A stretch of 7,380 nt of DNA from Flectobacillus sp. (GTDB lineage: Bacteria > Bacteroidota > Bacteroidia > Cytophagales > Spirosomataceae). A program made the position numbers and the translations under genes. The notes under the pieces are model-generated. The model was not told where the DNA came from. It saw only the letters and a program-made list of their open reading frames with translations, and did no database searches. Shown one piece after another: positions 2 through 7,380 of the stretch. Positions within the stretch are counted from its first letter, which is position 1, and each line of letters starts with the position of its first letter. Location of the stretch: contig JARXAV010000315.1 in assembly GCA_029865665.1 (NCBI GenBank), positions 1 to 7,380 on the forward strand, written 5' to 3'.

Positions 2-328
2 CAAGCTCCTCGTTGGATTTGGAATACAGAGTTCTCTTATTACCCGAAAGCTATCAAAAACTTACGTGCTTCGGTAGAATGGCAACACGTTGGAAGCTGG
101 TATCAGAACCAAGTGAATACCGTTTCTTACCCTGGTTATGATGTATTCAACGTGCGATTAGGTTACAAAATCTTTGGTGTTGAGGTATTTACGAATATTC
201 TTAATGCAAGCGATGCTCTTTATGCTTATAATGCAAGCCGTGGTAATGCCTCAACTGATAGAACCTCATTTACTCCTGCTGCACCTCGTACGTTTACGAT
301 GGGTATTCAGTATAATTTTGGGAAATAG
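2..328 (+). CDS. TonB-dependent receptor, C-terminal part (5' end outside window)
   Basis: The frame is open from the left edge and ends at a TAG at 326-328, giving 108 visible residues. They alternate aromatic/hydrophobic and polar residues as in outer-membrane beta strands (for example VEWQHVGSWY and FNVRLGYKIF). The run VEVFTNILNASDALY followed by a loop and the ending PRTFTMGIQYNFGK is the usual close of a Bacteroidota TonB-dependent receptor barrel, with a phenylalanine near the C terminus. The protein would import a ligand across the outer membrane using TonB energy; the plug domain and ligand are not visible. An internal GTG at 113 is not a start, because the frame and the barrel pattern continue upstream of it. 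The gene points the same way as the metal-handling genes from 1212 on, so it may be their receptor, now separated by the repeat-flanked minus-strand gene. That link is inferred. Confidence 0.85.
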   Translation, partial: QAPRWIWNTEFSYYPKAIKNLRASVEWQHVGSWYQNQVNTVSYPGYDVFNVRLGYKIFGVEVFTNILNASDALYAYNASRGNASTDRTSFTPAAPRTFTMGIQYNFGK

Positions 329-596: not shown

Positions 597-944
597 TCAT
601 TTTGTCTGAGAAGTCTTGATGATTGCTGTCAGGATATTAATAATGGAGTCAATTTGTTGTAAATAAGAGGTATAGTCAAGTTGAACTAGTTGGCTTCTTT
701 CTAAAAGTAAAAGCCAATATTTTGTTTCTCTAGCTTCTTTAGAGGCGATGCTCATTTTGTGGATGAAGTCATTTTTAGATTGAGCGGCTTCTGATTCGAC
801 AATATTCGCTCCGATACTGGTGGCACTTCGGACAAATTGTTTTGAGATAATAAACTCTTTTTCCTGCAATAAAACTTTATATAAAGCAATGGCAGACAAA
901 GCAAAATCAAAGCTCAAGCGTTGAATTAGGTTTTCTTTTTTCAT
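597..944 (-). CDS. Four-helix-bundle protein (23S rRNA intervening-sequence protein family)
   Basis: This gene encodes 115 residues starting MKKENLIQRLSFDFALSAIALYK. It belongs to the small four-helix-bundle family named after proteins encoded in 23S rRNA intervening sequences (S23/IVP type), related in fold to Avd, the accessory protein of diversity-generating retroelements. The diagnostic core is visible: RSATSIGANIVESEAAQSK, then DFIHKMSIASKEARETKYWL, with helices of the right length before and after. Length fits the family (about 110-125). The ATG at 944 is chosen; an upstream TTG at 977 would add 11 residues, MILHLFYHALF, that are not part of the family pattern. Family members form ring-like oligomers and some bind nucleic acid, but the cellular role is mostly unknown. 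The gene stands alone, opposite in direction to both neighbours, between two repeat arrays; no rRNA or reverse transcriptase is visible. This suggests a mobile or repeat-associated cassette. Confidence 0.88.
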   Translation of the reverse strand: MKKENLIQRLSFDFALSAIALYKVLLQEKEFIISKQFVRSATSIGANIVESEAAQSKNDFIHKMSIASKEARETKYWLLLLERSQLVQLDYTSYLQQIDSIINILTAIIKTSQTK

Positions 945-1211: not shown

Positions 1212-2738
1212 ATGATTAGAAAAAACATTTACCGTTGGCATCGCATTATTGGGCTTGTAACGGTCATTCCTGTCATATTTTGGACACTTTCGGGGTTGAT
1301 GCACCCTTTTATGTCGCACTGGTTTAAACCGAAAATTGCGAAAGAATTTATCGTTCAAAAGCCTGTCAAAAAGGAAAAATTGAAGCTGTCTATTCAAGAG
1401 GTTTTGAAGCAAGACAGCATTACCCAACTGAAAAATTTCAGAGTGGTTTCCTTTAATCATAAAACCTATTATCAGGTAAAACGAGTAGCAGGGAAACTGG
1501 CTTACTACGATGCTGCTACGGGAAAAGAACTCGAAAATGGCGATGTCCTATATGCTGAATGGATGGCAAGAGAATTATCAAAAGACTCTACATCTACGAT
1601 AAAATCCATTACGGTTCAAAGCGATTTCGACGGACAATATAAATTCGTCAATCGCCTGCTACCTGTCTATAAAGTTGAATTCGAGAAAGATAACGGCTTA
1701 GAAGTTTTTGTGGATACCGAAACTACTCGTATGGCAACCTTCAACACCAATGCTCGTAAGGCATTTATTTGGTTCTTTGATGTGTTCCATAACTGGTCAT
1801 TTTTAGATGCCATCGTTTCTACCAACATTCGTTTGGCGGTGATGATCCTGTTGTTGTCGATTATTATCCTTTCAACGGTTTCAGGATTAGTGATTTATGG
1901 GATTCTTTGGGGAAAATTTAAAAAGCCTCGTAGTGCCGATGACAAAGTAGGTATCTTAAAAAAATACCACCGTCAAATCGGTATTTGGGTGAGTTTTGTT
2001 ACCCTAACGTTTGCCTTTTCGGGGGCGTATCATGCCGCTAAAAAGTTTACCGCAGACGACCGTAATAAGTTTAGTTACGAACCTATTTTTAAGATAGAAG
2101 AGTTGGGCGTTAATCCTTTTGCCTTAAAAGTAGATTCTTCAAAAGTACTGAATATTGGTTTGTCTAAAATCAAGGACAAGGCATATTATACCGTATTTTT
2201 TAAGAAAGAAGAAGAGCAAACGCCAGAACCTGCTTTCTTTGATACCCAAACAGGGGAGGAGCTGAAAGACGGTAACTTGCTTTATGCTAAATATTTAGCA
2301 AATAAATTCTCGAACTTATCAGAAACAGCCATTGCAAAAGAACCCAAAGAAGGAGAGCAGGAGACAATGGCAGACTGTTGTGAGCCAGGTGCAGACGTTG
2401 CCAATGCCCAAGTGAATGATAAGAATTTGTTGAAGAGTGAATGGTTAACCAAATTTGACCGTGAATATGGCTTTGTAAATAAGCGTTTACCTGTGGTGAA
2501 AATTGCTTACGATACGCCAGAGAAGACTACGTATTACATCGAAACAGCAACAGGAAAACTAGCAGCCAAAGTTGAAAATGCAGACCGTAGAGAAGGCTAT
2601 AGTTTTGCGATTCTTCATAAATTCTTATTTATGGATTGGGCAGGAAAAGACGTTCGTGATATTGTAACAATGTTATCAGCATTGGGCGTTTTAGTGGTTA
2701 GCTTGTTTGGTTTAGCCTTGTTTTTGAAGGTGAAATAA
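1212..2738 (+). CDS. PepSY-associated transmembrane protein (PepSY_TM family), metal-uptake type
   Basis: This 508-residue inner-membrane protein has four predicted membrane helices near residues 11-33, 205-231, 255-275 and 481-506. Between helices 1 and 2, and again between 3 and 4, lie long extracytoplasmic segments with PepSY-like strands (YYDAATGKELENGDVLYAEW and FFDTQTGEELKDGNLLYAKY). The two halves are copies of one module: RWHRIIG matches KYHRQIG, FVNRLLPVYKVEF matches FVNKRLPVVKIAY, and FHNWSFLDA matches LHKFLFMDW. Histidines at the membrane edges (H10, H31, H193, H253, H274, H469) could bind heme or metal. The second half carries an insert of about 25 residues with a CC pair (C389, C390). 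Such proteins commonly sit beside TonB receptors in iron, siderophore or copper loci, and some are reductases; the exact activity is not known here. The ATG at 1212 puts the first helix right after a short basic N terminus. It leads the gene run. Confidence 0.88.
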   Translation: MIRKNIYRWHRIIGLVTVIPVIFWTLSGLMHPFMSHWFKPKIAKEFIVQKPVKKEKLKLSIQEVLKQDSITQLKNFRVVSFNHKTYYQVKRVAGKLAYYDAATGKELENGDVLYAEWMARELSKDSTSTIKSITVQSDFDGQYKFVNRLLPVYKVEFEKDNGLEVFVDTETTRMATFNTNARKAFIWFFDVFHNWSFLDAIVSTNIRLAVMILLLSIIILSTVSGLVIYGILWGKFKKPRSADDKVGILKKYHRQIGIWVSFVTLTFAFSGAYHAAKKFTADDRNKFSYEPIFKIEELGVNPFALKVDSSKVLNIGLSKIKDKAYYTVFFKKEEEQTPEPAFFDTQTGEELKDGNLLYAKYLANKFSNLSETAIAKEPKEGEQETMADCCEPGADVANAQVNDKNLLKSEWLTKFDREYGFVNKRLPVVKIAYDTPEKTTYYIETATGKLAAKVENADRREGYSFAILHKFLFMDWAGKDVRDIVTMLSALGVLVVSLFGLALFLKVK

Positions 2739-2764
2739 ATATAACCTCAATAAGAAAAAAAGTA

Positions 2765-2808
2765 GCTTGGGCAGTTCTAAAGGCTGTCCAAGCCTTATCC
2801 TATTTTGT
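2765..2808 (+). terminator. Hairpin after the PepSY gene: weak terminator or attenuator
   Basis: GCTTGGGCAG (2765-2774) pairs with CTGTCCAAGC (2784-2793), ten pairs including one G-U, around a nine-base loop. An A-rich run precedes it and CTTATCCTATTTT follows, only a partial T tract. It lies 26 bases after the PepSY stop and 24 before the next ATG, so it could end part of the transcription or stabilise the upstream message. Confidence 0.5.
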
Positions 2809-2817
2809 CATTTATTC

Positions 2818-3201
2818 ATGTTAAAAAATAGCATCCTATTTCTATTAATCCTCTTGTTGAATAGCTCTCTGTTCAACAAATGGGCGATTGTGGGCTATTA
2901 TGAAGCAAATCATGAATACATTGCCAAGGTGCTTTGTGAAAATAGAAAACATCCCGAGCTACATTGCGACGGGAAATGTTTTTTAGCTAAAAAACTCAAA
3001 AAAGCCGAAGAGCAAGAACAAAAACAAACTTCTGAAAAGCTAGAGAAAATCCAGAAAGTGACCTTGTTCTGTGTGCCTCTTTTGAGTTCAGAAAAAACCT
3101 TACTTACCTTTACTTCTTTAACAAAACGCATCGTATTTCCACCACATTTTTTCTTTGCTCAAGAAGAAAATTTTGGTGTCTTTCATCCCCCACAGGTTTA
3201 A
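2818..3201 (+). CDS. Small membrane-anchored Cys/His protein, unknown function
   Basis: The product is a 127-residue protein. Residues about 5-27 form one hydrophobic segment (signal anchor or signal peptide). Then comes an exported-looking segment with C40-ENR, H45, H49, C50, GKC54 and LAKKLKKAEE, that is, C-x9-C-x3-C with two nearby histidines, a plausible metal-binding cluster. Residues about 57-82 are highly charged and probably helical (KKLKKAEEQEQKQ). The C-terminal part has C85, H110 and H123 in a hydrophobic/aromatic stretch. From memory, small proteins with a CENR...C-GKC-L-KKL pattern occur in Bacteroidota beside metal-uptake genes, but I know of no assigned function. The ATG at 2818 is chosen; an upstream TTG at 2767 would start inside the hairpin stem and add a non-signal-like leader. 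Its position between PepSY and MbnP suggests a role in metal delivery or sensing; this is inference. Confidence 0.72.
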   Translation: MLKNSILFLLILLLNSSLFNKWAIVGYYEANHEYIAKVLCENRKHPELHCDGKCFLAKKLKKAEEQEQKQTSEKLEKIQKVTLFCVPLLSSEKTLLTFTSLTKRIVFPPHFFFAQEENFGVFHPPQV

Positions 3202-3229
3202 AATAAGCACTTCTTGTATGATTTTATGA

Positions 3230-3247
3230 CATGTCCTTCGGGTCATG
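3230..3247 (+). promoter_or_regulatory. UUCG-capped hairpin in the leader of the MbnP-like gene
   Basis: CATGTCC (3230-3236) and GGTCATG (3241-3247) close a C(TTCG)G tetraloop, with one T-T mismatch in seven positions. UUCG loops are unusually stable in RNA. No T tract follows directly, so it may be an RNA processing or stability element rather than a terminator. Confidence 0.4.
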
Positions 3248-3276
3248 GAAGATTTCTATTGTCTTATTATTAACCT

Positions 3277-3303
3277 GTCGAGTTTTCACTCGGCCCAATT
3301 TTG
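3277..3303 (+). terminator. Second leader hairpin followed by short T run
   Basis: GTCGAG (3277-3282) pairs with CTCGGC (3289-3294) around TTTTCA, with one U-G pair, then CCAATTTTG. It ends about ten bases before the MbnP-like ATG at 3313. It resembles a weak terminator or attenuator. The closeness to the start could also let it affect ribosome access. Confidence 0.35.
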
Positions 3304-3312
3304 TATTTACTC

Positions 3313-4119
3313 ATGACTAATAAATTATTCTCCTTTGCACTTATCGCTCTTATTTTCTCGTTAGTTTTTACTTCTTGTAAAAAGGAGGATGAAATTAATC
3401 CTAACGATAAAAACTCTCTTTTTGTCAATTTTGAAAACAAAGTAGGAGCGAGTGATTTGAAACTAGGAACAGCCTATACCAATGGTTCTGGCGAAGATTT
3501 TACTGTTACAATGCTGAACTATTTTATTTCTAATGTGTCTTTGAAAAAAGAAGACGGAACAACGGTTTCTTTCCCAAATCAGTATTTTTTGATTCGTCAG
3601 TCGGACGCAAGTACTTGGGCTCCAGAGTTAAAGGACGTTCCTGCAGGCAATTATACGGCCATTACCTTCAATGTAGGAGTTGATAGTACCAAAAGTGTTT
3701 CGGACGTAAGTCAGCGTACGGGTGCGTTGGATGTAGCTACGAACGGAATGTATTGGTCTTGGAATTCGGGATATGTATTTTTTAGATTTGAAGGGACTTC
3801 ATCAGTAGTACCAGCAAGTTCAAGTGGGGTTAAAGCATTCCAATTACACGTGGGAGGCTATGGCGGAATTGCAACAACTTCTAAAACCGTGAACAACAAT
3901 CGTAGCGTGGCTTTAGCTCTTCCAACAAAGGCAACTGTTCGTAATAACATTGCCCCCAAACTTCAGATGTATGCTGATTTGGCAAAGGTATTTAATGGAA
4001 CAACTGTGCTTAAATTGGCCGCAACGAATAGCGTACATAGTCCAGCGGCAGCCGTGCCAATTGCTAATAATTATGCAACGATGTTTAGTGTAAATCGTGT
4101 TGATAACGGTGCTAAGTAG
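3313..4119 (+). CDS. mbnP: MbnP-like copper-binding lipoprotein (partner of MbnH)
   Basis: This 268-residue protein is recognised by the MbnP pattern: SLFVNFENKVGASDLKLG near the N terminus, then MLNYFISNVSL, YFLIRQSD, ITFNVGVDS, GALDVATNGMYWSWNSGY followed by FFRFEG, FQLHVGG and the closing SVHSPAAAVPIANNYATMF. A signal peptide ends in a lipobox, FTSC, with C22 the lipidated residue, followed by KKED. W148 and W150 in MYWSWNSGY are candidates for the tryptophan that MbnH converts to kynurenine; H179, H242 and M257 could help bind Cu(I). In studied MbnP proteins kynurenine formation is needed for copper binding. The ATG at 3313 is preferred over a TTG at 3301, which would add only four residues. 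The paired di-heme gene lies downstream, with one small gene between. Attachment side (periplasm or cell surface) is not certain. Confidence 0.9.
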   Translation: MTNKLFSFALIALIFSLVFTSCKKEDEINPNDKNSLFVNFENKVGASDLKLGTAYTNGSGEDFTVTMLNYFISNVSLKKEDGTTVSFPNQYFLIRQSDASTWAPELKDVPAGNYTAITFNVGVDSTKSVSDVSQRTGALDVATNGMYWSWNSGYVFFRFEGTSSVVPASSSGVKAFQLHVGGYGGIATTSKTVNNNRSVALALPTKATVRNNIAPKLQMYADLAKVFNGTTVLKLAATNSVHSPAAAVPIANNYATMFSVNRVDNGAK

Positions 4120-4121
4120 GG

Positions 4122-4322
4122 ATGTTGAGTCGTAAACAATTAGAAAACTGGTTGGAAGGTACGAATATTGTCCTTCCACCACCTCCTTCTTTTTCGGAGC
4201 GAATCAAAGGAATGCTGACATTAACGAGTTTCGACAAATTACAAAAACTAATGTTAGCAGTTCATTTTTTTACGATGGCTACGCTGATTTTCAGTCTGAT
4301 GTATAAATTGTTATTGAACTAA
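4122..4322 (+). CDS. Small single-helix membrane protein, coupled to the MbnP-like gene
   Basis: I do not recognise this 66-residue protein. It begins MLSRKQLENWLEGTNIVLPP, with a proline run PPPP at 19-22, a short amphipathic region (SERIKGMLTLTSFDKLQKL) and one hydrophobic helix at about residues 43-63 ending YKLLLN. Without a cleavable signal, it probably sits in the inner membrane by a C-terminal anchor, with the N-terminal part in the cytoplasm. Its ATG is only two bases after the MbnP-like stop, so translation is probably coupled, which is the main reason to call it real. Candidate metal ligands are few (M31, M44, H48, M52, M60). Placed between MbnP and MbnH, it may help assemble or tether the pair, but this is a guess. 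Confidence 0.62.
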   Translation: MLSRKQLENWLEGTNIVLPPPPSFSERIKGMLTLTSFDKLQKLMLAVHFFTMATLIFSLMYKLLLN

Positions 4323-4328
4323 TTATGC

Positions 4329-4424
4329 TTGGGGTTGTGTGAAAAAGCACTTGATGTCAGAAGGTTGCTTCTTTACGTTTGTAAACTCATCAACTTTCAA
4401 CTTTACACAGCCCCAATTTTTCTT
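4329..4424 (+). promoter_or_regulatory. Branched RNA structure or long-stem attenuator ahead of the di-heme peroxidase gene
   Basis: TTGGGGTTGTGTGAA (4329-4343) pairs over 15 positions with TTTACACAGCCCCAA (4402-4416), with two G-U pairs, and is followed at once by TTTTTCTT. Inside lies TTGATG (4351-4356) with CATCAA (4388-4393), which encloses AGAAG-GTTG-CTTCT (4359-4372) and TTTAC-GTTT-GTAAA (4372-4385), sharing one base. This gives a possible three-way junction. The structure ends about 20 bases before the ATG at 4442. It could end transcription after the small membrane gene, or act as an attenuator. I do not recognise it as a known riboswitch class. Confidence 0.5.
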
Positions 4425-4441
4425 AAAAATAGGCTTCTTCC

Positions 4442-5542
4442 ATGAAAAAAATACATCGAATTATCAGTTGTTTATTCTTACTGGTGTGGGTATTGTCTTG
4501 TGCTGAAAGTGGTACAGAAATCGACCCCAATAAACTTTCTTATACGCCAAGTAATTTTCCAAAAGCGGAATATGATTTAACAAGTAATCCCGTAACCAAA
4601 GAAGGATTTGAATTAGGAAGAAGCCTTTTTTATGATGGGATTTTGTCAAGAGACGGTACGATTTCTTGTGGTGAATGTCACCGGCAAGACTTTGCTTTTA
4701 CACACCATTTACACGATTTGAGCCACGGAATTGATGGGAAAATTGGGTTGAGAAATACCCCTACACTTCAAAACCTTGCTTGGGGAAAAACGTTTGGTTG
4801 GGATGGTGGCGTTGTCGGCTTAGATTTTTTTGCGATTGCCCCCATTGAAAACCCTGTTGAAATGGATGAAACAACGGCGAATGTTTTGGATAAATTGAGA
4901 AAGACGGACAAATATCCAACCATGTTTAAAAATGCTTTTGGAACAACCGAAATTACGTCGGTACGTTTTTTAAAGGCCCTTTCGCAGTTTATGTTATCGT
5001 TGGTATCGGCAAATTCTCGTTACGACAAGTACATCCGTAAAGAGGAAGGAGGGACGCTTACCGAAACGGAATTGGCTGGACTCAGTGCTTTTAAACAAAA
5101 ATGTGCTTCGTGTCATGTAGGAGAACTTTTTACAGACGAAACATATCGCAATAATGGATTGCCTCCAACTGACCGTCAGCAAGTTGTTTATAAGGTTGTT
5201 AACGGTGTGACAACGGCTACCTTAGAACGAGTTTATGACGACGGACGAATGCGTATTACAGAATTAGCGGCCGATAAAAATAAGTTTAAAGTACCAACGC
5301 TCCGAAACATTGAAGCTAGCAGACCTTACATGCACGACGGACGTTTCACGACGTTAGAACAAGTGTTAGACCATTACAGCAGTACTGTTACAGAAACGGC
5401 AAACCTAGACCCAAGCCTCAAAAAAAATGGCGTGTTGGGAATCCCGTTGACCAGTACGGAAAAAACACAAATTATTGCGTTTTTGAAAACGCTGACAGAC
5501 CGTGATTTTTTGGCAGATAAACGGTTTGCTCCCACTTTATAA
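4442..5542 (+). CDS. mbnH: MbnH-like di-heme peroxidase lipoprotein (CcpA/MauG superfamily)
   Basis: This 366-residue c-type cytochrome has two heme sites: CGECH (C76, C79, H80) and CASCH (C221, C224, H225). Family marks follow in order: FAFTHH, LSHGIDGKIGLRNTPTLQNL, FGWDGG, PIENPVEM, then KVPTLRNIEASRPYMHDGRF and LEQVLDHY near the C terminus. W120 of FGWDG fits the inter-heme tryptophan by spacing from heme 1, E140 of NPVEM fits the conserved acidic residue near the active heme, and M297 of PYMHDG fits the methionine ligand position of bacterial CcpA enzymes. A signal peptide ends at lipobox VLSC, C20. Next to an MbnP-like gene, the likely job is peroxide-driven oxidation of a tryptophan in that partner to kynurenine; a plain cytochrome c peroxidase is the alternative. 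The stop is 11 bases before the next ATG, so the two are probably co-transcribed. Confidence 0.9.
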   Translation: MKKIHRIISCLFLLVWVLSCAESGTEIDPNKLSYTPSNFPKAEYDLTSNPVTKEGFELGRSLFYDGILSRDGTISCGECHRQDFAFTHHLHDLSHGIDGKIGLRNTPTLQNLAWGKTFGWDGGVVGLDFFAIAPIENPVEMDETTANVLDKLRKTDKYPTMFKNAFGTTEITSVRFLKALSQFMLSLVSANSRYDKYIRKEEGGTLTETELAGLSAFKQKCASCHVGELFTDETYRNNGLPPTDRQQVVYKVVNGVTTATLERVYDDGRMRITELAADKNKFKVPTLRNIEASRPYMHDGRFTTLEQVLDHYSSTVTETANLDPSLKKNGVLGIPLTSTEKTQIIAFLKTLTDRDFLADKRFAPTL

Positions 5543-5553
5543 GCATCAACAAG

Positions 5554-6468
5554 ATGAAAAAATATAGCTTCCTTTTTTTGATTTCTTTTTTTGTCACCAC
5601 TTCATCGTATGCCTGTGACCTTTGTGGCTGTGGGAATGGCGGTTCGTTTTTTGGCATTTTACCCCAAGCTCACAAAAGCTTTGTAGGCTTACGATACGGT
5701 TACAAAAGTTATGATTCGCATATCAAAACACCCAATTTACAAACGCACGAAGATTTCTGGAAAACAGAACTTTGGTTTAGAACGTATCCCATAAAACGAG
5801 TACAATTACTAGCTTTTGTTCCTTACCTTTTCAACAAACAAACGATTTTTCAGACGGGTAATCAGTTGGATTTACAGGGTTTAGGCGATATGACCTTACT
5901 CGCTAATTACAATGTGTTCAATACCTTAACGGATACCATTCCGCATCGTTTTGACCATAATTTACTGATTGGAGGAGGGGTGAAATTACCCACTGGAAAG
6001 TATCAATACGATGCCCTAAACGATAGCGAAGTCGCCAATGCCAATTTTCAGTTAGGCACAGGGAGTACAGACTTTCTGCTGAACTTAGTCTATACAATAA
6101 GGCACAAAGCGTGGGGGCTAAATTATGATGTTACCTATAAAATTAATACGCAAAACAAGAACGATTATCATTTTGGAAATCGCTTTACGAGCAATCTTTC
6201 GCTTTTGTATTTTCATCATTTGAGCGATGACATCACGCTGATTCCGAATGCTGGAATTACCTACGAATCAGCACCAAAAGATACTCAAAACGAAGTGCCG
6301 AATGCCAATACAGGAGGAAATGCTTTGTTGGCTTCGGTAGGATTAGAAGGGTATATACACCAATTTTCGGCAGGTATTAATTATCAGAATCCTATTGCCC
6401 AAGAGTTAGTCAATGGCGACTTACGAGCCAATCAGCGGTTGAATGTACATTTTACGTTTTTGTTTTGA
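5554..6468 (+). CDS. Outer-membrane beta-barrel protein with Cys-rich mature N terminus
   Basis: The protein has 304 residues and a signal peptide MKKYSFLFLISFFVTTSSYA, probably cut after A20, so the mature protein would begin CDLCGCGNGG (C21, C24, C26), a compact CxxCxC that could bind a soft metal. SYAC is a poor lipobox, so lipidation of C21 is possible but less likely. The rest is alternating aromatic and polar strands (FVGLRYGYKSY, WKTELWFRTYP, VQLLAFVPYLF, LNYDVTYKIN, FSAGINYQNP) ending LNVHFTFLF with a terminal phenylalanine, as expected of a barrel inserted by the Bam machinery. It resembles Bacteroidota proteins often annotated only as transporter or hypothetical. Closely spaced after the di-heme peroxidase gene, it is probably an outer-membrane part of the same metal system. 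No catalytic motif is seen. Confidence 0.78.
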   Translation: MKKYSFLFLISFFVTTSSYACDLCGCGNGGSFFGILPQAHKSFVGLRYGYKSYDSHIKTPNLQTHEDFWKTELWFRTYPIKRVQLLAFVPYLFNKQTIFQTGNQLDLQGLGDMTLLANYNVFNTLTDTIPHRFDHNLLIGGGVKLPTGKYQYDALNDSEVANANFQLGTGSTDFLLNLVYTIRHKAWGLNYDVTYKINTQNKNDYHFGNRFTSNLSLLYFHHLSDDITLIPNAGITYESAPKDTQNEVPNANTGGNALLASVGLEGYIHQFSAGINYQNPIAQELVNGDLRANQRLNVHFTFLF

Positions 6469-6517: not shown

Positions 6518-7380
6518 TTATCCTTCCAAGTTCAATGTTCCCCAAACTAGCCGAATTTCGCCGTAGCTGTATTCATCGCCTAGCAATTCTTTCAACTCTT
6601 TGCTCTTGAAGGTGGGATTTTCTAGGATGGTTTCTCGAATGATTTTTATTTTATCTTCTTCCATTAATTCCTCAATATGCAACATTCCTTTTTTGACAAA
6701 CTCTGCCAAATGTCCTTCGATGGTAGTGGCAGAAAGCTGACGCATAGTTGCAATGGTTTCGACGCTGTTCCCTTCTTTGAATAAATTAAAACTCATGAGT
6801 TGCGTACTACCTTTGGGTGCCGCTTTTTTAGTTGGAGGTGTGACTTTCTCAAAAGTACTTGCTTCAATCCCATTTCGCTCGCAGTGGTCATTAATAAGGT
6901 CTAAAATTTGGTCTCCAAATTGTTGGATTTTTACCTTGCCAAGACCGCTAATTTTTGCTAATGCCGTTTTAGTACGAGGTAATTCTTCCGTTAAGGCTTG
7001 AATGCTTTTTTGTGATAAAACCATGTATTTTTCAATGTTTTTATCCAATGCAATTTCGTCTCGCCATGCTCTTAGTTGTTGGAATAAATCGCTCGTATTT
7101 TCATTTGTATTTACCTGTTTGCTTTTTAATAAACGTCCTTTTTCGGCTTCAAAATCAATATTAATATTAGCTTTGGTCGTTAAATAAGAGGTAGAGTCAA
7201 AGCCTGTTTGATTACATTGTAAGAGTTTTACTTTCTCGAAACTTTGTTGTAAGGCTTGTTCCCATATTTTCGCAACCGCTTTTTGTGTTTCCTTATTATC
7301 ACAGGCTAAATCCATACTTTTGAGAGGACTAAAAAGCAACTCTTCTACTTTTTGAGCTAAATACGTACTCCCTTTTTGAA
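6518..7380 (-). CDS. C-terminal part of a helicase with HRDC and HTH_40 domains (N terminus outside window)
   Basis: The minus frame is open to the right edge; 286 residues are visible, beginning QKGSTYLAQKVEEL and ending GTLNLEG. An HRDC domain (about 6884-7093) is clear from LFQQLRAWRDEIA, MVLSQKSIQALTEELPRTK, LAKISGLGKVKIQQFGDQIL. HRDC helps helicases contact DNA. After a basic, proline-containing linker (TPPTKKAAPKG) comes a helix-turn-helix region of HTH_40 type (about 6530-6793), with LFKEGNSVETIATMRQLSATTIEGHL. This pairing ends RecQ-like and Pif1-like helicases of Bacteroidota. The segment before HRDC (QTGFDSTSYLTTKANINIDF) does not look like the RecQ winged-helix RQC domain, so a Pif1/AAA-type helicase is slightly preferred. 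A TTG at 7339 is not the start, as similar sequence continues upstream. It is a DNA maintenance gene with no evident tie to the metal locus. Confidence 0.85.
   Translation of the reverse strand, partial: QKGSTYLAQKVEELLFSPLKSMDLACDNKETQKAVAKIWEQALQQSFEKVKLLQCNQTGFDSTSYLTTKANINIDFEAEKGRLLKSKQVNTNENTSDLFQQLRAWRDEIALDKNIEKYMVLSQKSIQALTEELPRTKTALAKISGLGKVKIQQFGDQILDLINDHCERNGIEASTFEKVTPPTKKAAPKGSTQLMSFNLFKEGNSVETIATMRQLSATTIEGHLAEFVKKGMLHIEELMEEDKIKIIRETILENPTFKSKELKELLGDEYSYGEIRLVWGTLNLEG

Follow-up and report, generated by a model that had tools for sequence, protein, structure and literature searches.

A stretch of 7,380 nucleotides from the aquatic or soil bacterium Flectobacillus sp. (contig JARXAV010000315.1), called the window at its full length, carries an envelope metal locus in which six genes on the plus strand follow the end of a TonB-dependent receptor gene. 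A first-pass annotation had named these reading frames, including the receptor end, and all of them are real. The six begin with a PepSY_TM inner-membrane protein of 508 residues (1212..2738; PF03929) and continue with a small Cys protein of 127 residues (2818..3201), an MbnP of 268 residues (3313..4119), a 66-residue probable single-pass membrane protein (4122..4322), an MbnH-like di-haem protein (4442..5542) and a 12-stranded outer-membrane barrel (5554..6468). MbnP lies 111 nucleotides after the small Cys protein, and both MbnP and MbnH are probable lipoproteins. The small Cys protein reads best as a candidate copper-sensing arrest-peptide leader, and the locus probably belongs to a Bacteroidota regulon for acquiring and handling copper, under leader control.

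The candidate leader has a hydrophobic N-terminus, a three-Cys motif (C40-x9-C50-x-G-x-C54; 2935..2979) in which each Cys is 99% conserved over 74 aligned relatives, and a C-terminal F-H-P-P-Q-V (3181..3198), the putative arrest motif. We scanned GTDB genomes with an MbnP alignment and collected 78 loci, from 80 of the 171 confirmed matches, with flanks of up to 10 kb. CxGxC is present in 75 of the 76 leader copies of these loci, and a hydrophobic N-terminal stretch, judged by Kyte-Doolittle only, in all 76. PP falls within the last 12 residues in 75/76 leaders, compared with 22/1359 other open reading frames (ORFs) and 10/363 small ORFs; the stricter C-terminal pattern [FL][HRQK]PP plus 1-5 residues is found in 68/76 leaders and 1/1359 other ORFs. 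Among 135 unique proteins, 133 have a distance of 65-72 residues from CxGxC to PP, the other two being unmeasured, and PP stands 1-5 residues ahead of the stop in 129/134 leaders. Identity is only 28% in the spacer, whereas it is 69% in the Cys motif. Because 65-72 residues are about the length of the ribosome tunnel plus the translocon, the Cys site would reach the periplasm as the ribosome arrives at PP. The leader family has no credible Pfam match. Its profile has 1611 database protein matches, and the names among the 120 matches listed are hypothetical, uncharacterized or secreted protein. The first-pass annotation had listed it as a small Cys/His protein; its anatomy and position read better as those of a leader than as those of one more metal binder.

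The position of the leader was followed in 24 genomes selected among MbnP carriers, most of them assembled in few contigs, in which all 42 leader copies were examined. Every copy (41 seen, 1 inferred) precedes same-strand MbnP/MbnH, TonB-receptor or SCO genes; the target gene is directly next for 36 of them, and for the other 6 a single small gene or another leader comes in between. The next same-strand gene is MbnP for 12 copies (1 inferred from the stretch end), MbnH followed by MbnP for 2, a receptor of the window's type for 15, a distant receptor (21-27% identity) for 4, an OprC-like receptor for 1 and SCO for 2. A small protein intervenes before SCO in 3 cases and before a receptor in 2, and a second leader before a receptor in 1. 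Up to four leader copies occur per genome, one heading each module. In the 78 loci, the gene after the leader is MbnP in 52, MbnH in 11, a receptor in 3, the barrel in 2 and another gene in 8, including two ORFs on the opposite strand that may be miscalls. The small protein between leader and SCO (cluster 24) was seen in L039 (12861-13310), L143, L148 and L149, and has no Pfam match above cut-off.

The leader is also linked to nitrous-oxide reductase (nos) clusters. NosZ (TIGR04246, over cut-off) is present in 41 of 220 genomes, and in at least 17 of these 41 a same-strand leader follows NosZ at a distance of up to about 12 kb, usually with nosY and a fasciclin gene in between. NosL, NosD and fasciclin were verified by Pfam on examples. 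The 17 comprise 7 from known loci, 3 from the leader survey combined with NosZ coordinates, with the intervening genes read in part, and 7 of 30 other genomes fetched; five of the negatives have stretches shorter than 7 kb, so that 17/41 is a lower bound. Behind these leaders are MbnP-MbnH (6 cases), a receptor and then a second leader with MbnP-MbnH (1), a receptor of the window's type (8, of which 6 behind a small gene), an OprC-like receptor (1) and a 745-residue protein (1). One locus (L050) has MbnP-MbnH beside nos and no leader. The leader density is about one per 4 Mb (42 in 24 genomes), from which hand arithmetic gives a chance expectation of about 0.1 in 41; due to kinship among the genomes, the excess says only that the link between leader and nos is not accidental. 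In the literature searched, to which most subscription papers and all supplements did not belong, we met no description of an MbnP-nos link or of the leader family.

Other neighbours in the 78 loci are YHS (15), SCO1 (3), an HMBD-DJ1 type (5) and HMA (3), assigned by clustering with one representative each tested. The SCO-like protein of L140 has no NCBIfam match and takes its name from 67% identity to the L005 protein (Pfam SCO1-SenC). In L131 (934-3663), nosY, fasciclin and a leader are followed by the OprC-like receptor, which carries a C-P-N-R-M (CxxxM) motif and has TIGR01778 as its best family at 215 bits, under the cut-off of 472. Copper, the substrate proposed in the first-pass annotation, is the metal that we likewise infer: SCO1, YHS, HMA and nos neighbours and the leader support it by context.

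Family membership, fold and conserved residues together identify MbnP, MbnH and the barrel, and the MbnP/MbnH pair of the first-pass annotation is upheld on the same grounds. The window MbnP matches Pfam PF20243 at 179.8 bits (cut-off 27) and has the fold of the solved MbnP. WxW occurs in 96 of 97 MbnP ORFs of relatives and corresponds to W148-S-W150 (3754-3762) in the window, where M146 and H179 (3847-3849) are the other residues of interest. In the pairs known from methanobactin clusters, MbnP is a Cu(I)-binding protein in which the leading Trp of WxW becomes oxidised. The best PDB match of the window MbnH is 6e1c, which we take to be M. trichosporium MbnH. Its two CxxCH motifs lie at 4667-4681 and 5102-5116; among 101 MbnH-like ORFs, 97 have two such motifs, 2 have three and 2 have one, and Y312 is present in 100% of those aligned. 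As had been noted for the window, no methanobactin enzyme gene lies alongside in relatives: the MbnB family (PF05114) is absent in 35 of 40 relatives' genomes, and the 5 that carry one have it away from the MbnP locus.

Several variants of the pair were observed. Two di-haem enzymes per substrate protein are found in 11 loci with the order MbnH-MbnP-MbnH-barrel (L002, L004, L006, L007, L009, L010, L011, L012, L015, L017 and L019). L052 (9965-11808) is a natural loss case, in which MbnP has W-S-K in place of WxW, with the barrel adjoining and no MbnH beside it. In L155 (8565-8960 and its neighbour) mbnP is broken into two frames. The 66-residue membrane protein between MbnP and MbnH is present only in some loci (L002, L004, L010, L017, L019 and L157).

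A core recurs that consists of the Cys protein, MbnP, MbnH and the barrel. Of the 78 loci, 63 contain both leader and barrel, 3 only the leader, 3 only the barrel and 9 neither, some of which are cut by contig ends. The run leader-(MbnH)-MbnP-MbnH-barrel is unbroken in 39/78 loci; elsewhere YHS, PepSY or other genes intervene. The barrel is present in 94 of the 220 genomes, and 93 of these 94 carry MbnP (Fisher p 5e-16). It has a conserved N-terminal tail (C21xxC24xC26), and FapF is one of its two nearest folds, with an identity of 14-17% to the COG4313/FapF 12-strand channels. The best GTDB match is Arcicella rosea, whose MbnP is 63% identical; Lacihabitans soyangensis (G005, L032), presumably also of Spirosomataceae, is another source of these loci.

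The receptor and PepSY genes form a second module, which is separate from the MbnP module and repeatedly joined with it. The suggestion that the six genes are one conserved operon was rejected, since the window's receptor type was found in only 3/78 and its PepSY type in only 2/78 MbnP loci with their flanks. The PepSY type of the window (E<=1e-40) occurs in 23 of the 220 genomes, all 23 among MbnP carriers, and 22 of these have a leader-receptor-PepSY triad. MbnP-MbnH lies in the same stretch as PepSY in 15/23 genomes, in at least three different gene orders, which rules out that receptor-PepSY is wholly unlinked to MbnP-MbnH. The other 8 show no MbnP-MbnH in the sequence examined, which on most sides extends for about 5 kb or more; they include the three PepSY copies most similar to that of the window, and 2 of them have an MbnH-like fragment at the stretch end. 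These cases indicate separate modules that are repeatedly brought together, and in the window and in Arcicella (L001) both adjoin. The statement in the first-pass annotation that the six genes follow a TonB receptor is borne out by this link and modified by an inverted gene (597..944) that intervenes in the window. In L135, L136, L137 and L144, a BNR-like protein (weak match, sub-cut-off) stands after a receptor of the window's type and is followed by MbnP-MbnH.

The window holds the C-terminal end of its receptor (2..328, plus strand; PF00593 at 19.6 bits, sub-cut-off), the N-terminal part lying beyond the window start, and this end shows 56-71% identity to receptors in L001, L035 and L039. 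In 41 receptors of this type, mostly from leader or PepSY contexts, the plug residues M147, H155, M157 and H186 are invariant, as are M492 and M674 (L035 numbering). The best NCBIfam class of the receptor is TonB-siderophor at 129 bits, below cut-off, and OprC is not among the solved-structure matches obtained by sequence only. A vicinal CysCys (389-390) and seven His are invariant in the PepSY family (n=23, the window's protein included); this protein is a candidate haem-dependent metal reductase.

Taken together, we propose the following mechanism. The leader would be threaded into or through the membrane during translation, and the ribosome would pause on reaching its C-terminal F-H-P-P. 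Copper at the three-Cys motif would alter the pause and thereby set the expression of mbnP, mbnH and the barrel; by analogy with CruR, repression by copper is the likelier direction. MbnH, with two haems and an oxidant, would convert W148 of MbnP to kynurenine, which together with H179 and probably M146 may give MbnP a Cu(I) site. The three-Cys-tailed 12-strand barrel could be a channel that the lipoproteins MbnP and MbnH load or unload, and receptor and PepSY may act as a partner import module for uptake of a copper chelate and its reduction to Cu(I). More tentatively, Bacteroidota may have a large class of their own of arrest peptides that are threaded through the membrane and sense copper, and the 65-72 spacing in these would expose the Cys site to the periplasm at PP. 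Periplasmic copper would then jointly switch the modules of MbnP/MbnH, of TonB receptors and of SCO and those after nos, making up a single regulon, and CruR would instead read cytoplasmic copper. We regard this extension to one class of nascent-chain readers as possible rather than probable.

A different role for the MbnP-MbnH-barrel part, namely that it buffers or exports copper for protection instead of taking it up, appears fairly unlikely. FapF, to which the barrel is close in fold, is an export channel, and outer-membrane efflux genes are the commonest neighbours of CutF-like leaders in the available text of PMC9973294. However, the same leaders precede TonB receptors and SCO genes and follow nos clusters, which require copper supply, and the available part of PMC3912023 describes CorA as copper-repressed. 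The small Cys protein itself might be a membrane-anchored copper chaperone that carries Cu(I) between the inner membrane and MbnP, with PP having a structural or docking role. Its conserved Cys, its hydrophobic N-terminus, its copies beside copper-type genes, its lack of DUF2946 similarity and the lack of a common RNA structure 3' of it would all fit a chaperone. We consider this unlikely because a variable spacer of constant length and a PP near the stop are more readily explained by a ribosome ruler than by a folded chaperone, and because up to four copies per genome each stand before a module. It is very improbable that the metal is not copper and that MbnP/MbnH rides along with receptor-PepSY import of iron or another metal chelate, as the TonB-siderophor class of the receptor and the other known PepSY_TM enzymes, ferrisiderophore reductases in the accessible text of PMC13038864, might suggest, given the SCO1, nos, HMA and OprC-like neighbours and the fact that leader, barrel, receptor and PepSY all keep conserved Cys, Met or Cys pairs.

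Several observations weigh against the proposed mechanism. The leaders were partly gathered by a profile containing the Cys and PP columns, the survey genomes were selected from MbnP carriers, and kinship among the genomes means that they do not count as independent cases. In 50/76 cases the leader is preceded by a gene of the same orientation; therefore, the leader need not start the transcript and may sit inside longer ones. Shared RNA structure in the leader-gene gaps was tried and rejected: 60 gaps were no more structured than 150 sampled control gaps (p 0.44), so that an attenuator is not demonstrated. None of 27 leaders matches DUF2946 at E<=10, and their C-terminal motif reads F[HRQK]PP rather than RAPP. 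NosZ and MbnP do not co-occur by genome more often than by chance (MbnP in 32/41 genomes with NosZ vs 130/179 without, p 0.56), and this comparison was dropped as copper evidence. The equivalog cut-offs are not reached by MbnP (TIGR04052, 58.9 bits, cut-off 140) or by MbnH (TIGR04039, 241.5 bits, cut-off 362.85), and the window MbnP would thus belong to the wider family, not to the TIGR04052 equivalog. In addition, the WxW loop of MbnP is poorly modelled, and MbnP has a single conserved His where CorA uses two according to the available part of PMC3912023.

The remaining features of the window are less closely tied to this system. Between the receptor end and the PepSY gene lies the inverted gene mentioned above (597..944, minus strand), a four-helix-bundle gene of the 23S rRNA intervening-sequence family (PF05635 at 83 bits; TIGR02436 over cut-off), which is probably outside the metal system. 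Imperfect repeats like GATTTTGGATGTTGGATTTTGAATT, found by eye at 340-600 and 1010-1190, bracket it and look as if a small element had inserted between receptor and PepSY. A terminator-like hairpin follows PepSY ahead of the leader (2780..2796, plus strand), of a site class no commoner than in shuffles, and another lies in the leader-MbnP gap (3277..3294, plus strand), as a class not above chance. Terminator-like sites occur in 15/69 leader-gene gaps vs 8.2 in simple shuffles, and promoter-like and terminator-like sites in the window are at chance level. At 4329-4416, between the 66-residue gene and mbnH, inspection by eye showed a long inverted repeat (TTGGGGTTGTGTGAAA / TTTACACAGCCCCAA) with T's after it, a possible attenuator. 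An Rfam search of the window gave no match. The C-terminal part of a RecQ (6518..7378, minus strand; HRDC, HTH_40) is a converging, unrelated neighbour.

Little is known of how Bacteroidota take up copper. If our proposal is true, one small unnamed protein would mark a copper regulon across Bacteroidota, and the kynurenine-type copper protein MbnP would be tied to real copper demand, including that of nitrous-oxide reductase, a climate-relevant copper enzyme. The leader would also sense metal through its nascent chain, and the length of its ruler would tell which membrane side is sensed.

Among the closest known systems is CruR-CrtA-CrpH of Bordetella pertussis, which likewise combines a small Cys leader, a C-terminal PP at fixed spacing, a TonB receptor and PepSY_TM, as far as the available texts describe it (PMC9426467, PMC12914433, PMC13038864). 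In the accessible part of PMC9426467, the B. pertussis operon cruR-receptor-PepSY_TM is copper-repressed, CruR operons also hold MbnPH-like genes, and CruR has a 45-residue spacing and is signal-independent; the string 'Bacteroid' does not occur in that text. The window leader shares with CruR the fixed Cys-PP spacing and the position before receptor, PepSY or MbnPH genes. Unlike CruR, it lacks a DUF2946 match, has C-x9-C-x-G-x-C instead of CXXC and F[HRQK]PP instead of RAPP, and its family has a spacing of about 68 residues. We therefore liken the leader to CruR and CutF by anatomy and context, and place it outside DUF2946 by sequence. The CrtA cluster has two conserved His and no conserved Met or Cys in the available text of PMC12914433, whereas the receptors of the window's type keep M147, M157, M492 and M674 and fall outside that cluster.

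The CutF-like proteins are defined by filters (fewer than 150 residues, PP in the last 15 residues, an N-terminal signal and a same-strand gene within 1000 nucleotides), and the available text of PMC9973294 assigns 19-40% of them to Bacteroidota, lists TonB-like genes as frequent neighbours and ties some to nitrous-oxide reductase genes; 'MbnP' does not occur in this text. The window leader passes the rules on length, PP and neighbouring gene with its 127 residues, its FHPPQV end and the same-strand MbnP next to it; a putative signal is suggested by its Kyte-Doolittle hydrophobic stretch. The MbnP/MbnH pair resembles that of methanobactin clusters (Methylosinus; 7l6g, 6e1c) and CorA/CorB in its adjacency, WxW, fold and two CxxCH, and it differs from the methanobactin-cluster pair in having no MbnB gene beside MbnP in relatives, two probable lipoproteins and a barrel with a three-Cys tail, and from CorA in its one conserved His. 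According to the accessible part of PMC3912023, Methylomicrobium CorA has its Cu(I) site adjacent to a kynurenine, and in 2013 MbnP/MbnH had already been recorded away from methanobactin clusters (PMC3621798, in the portion available). Unlike the COG4313/FapF channels, the window barrel has a conserved CxxCxC N-tail. The MbnP/MbnH pair and the style of regulator are thus known, and the Bacteroidota leader family, the Cys-tailed barrel and the nos linkage appear to be the new features of this locus type.

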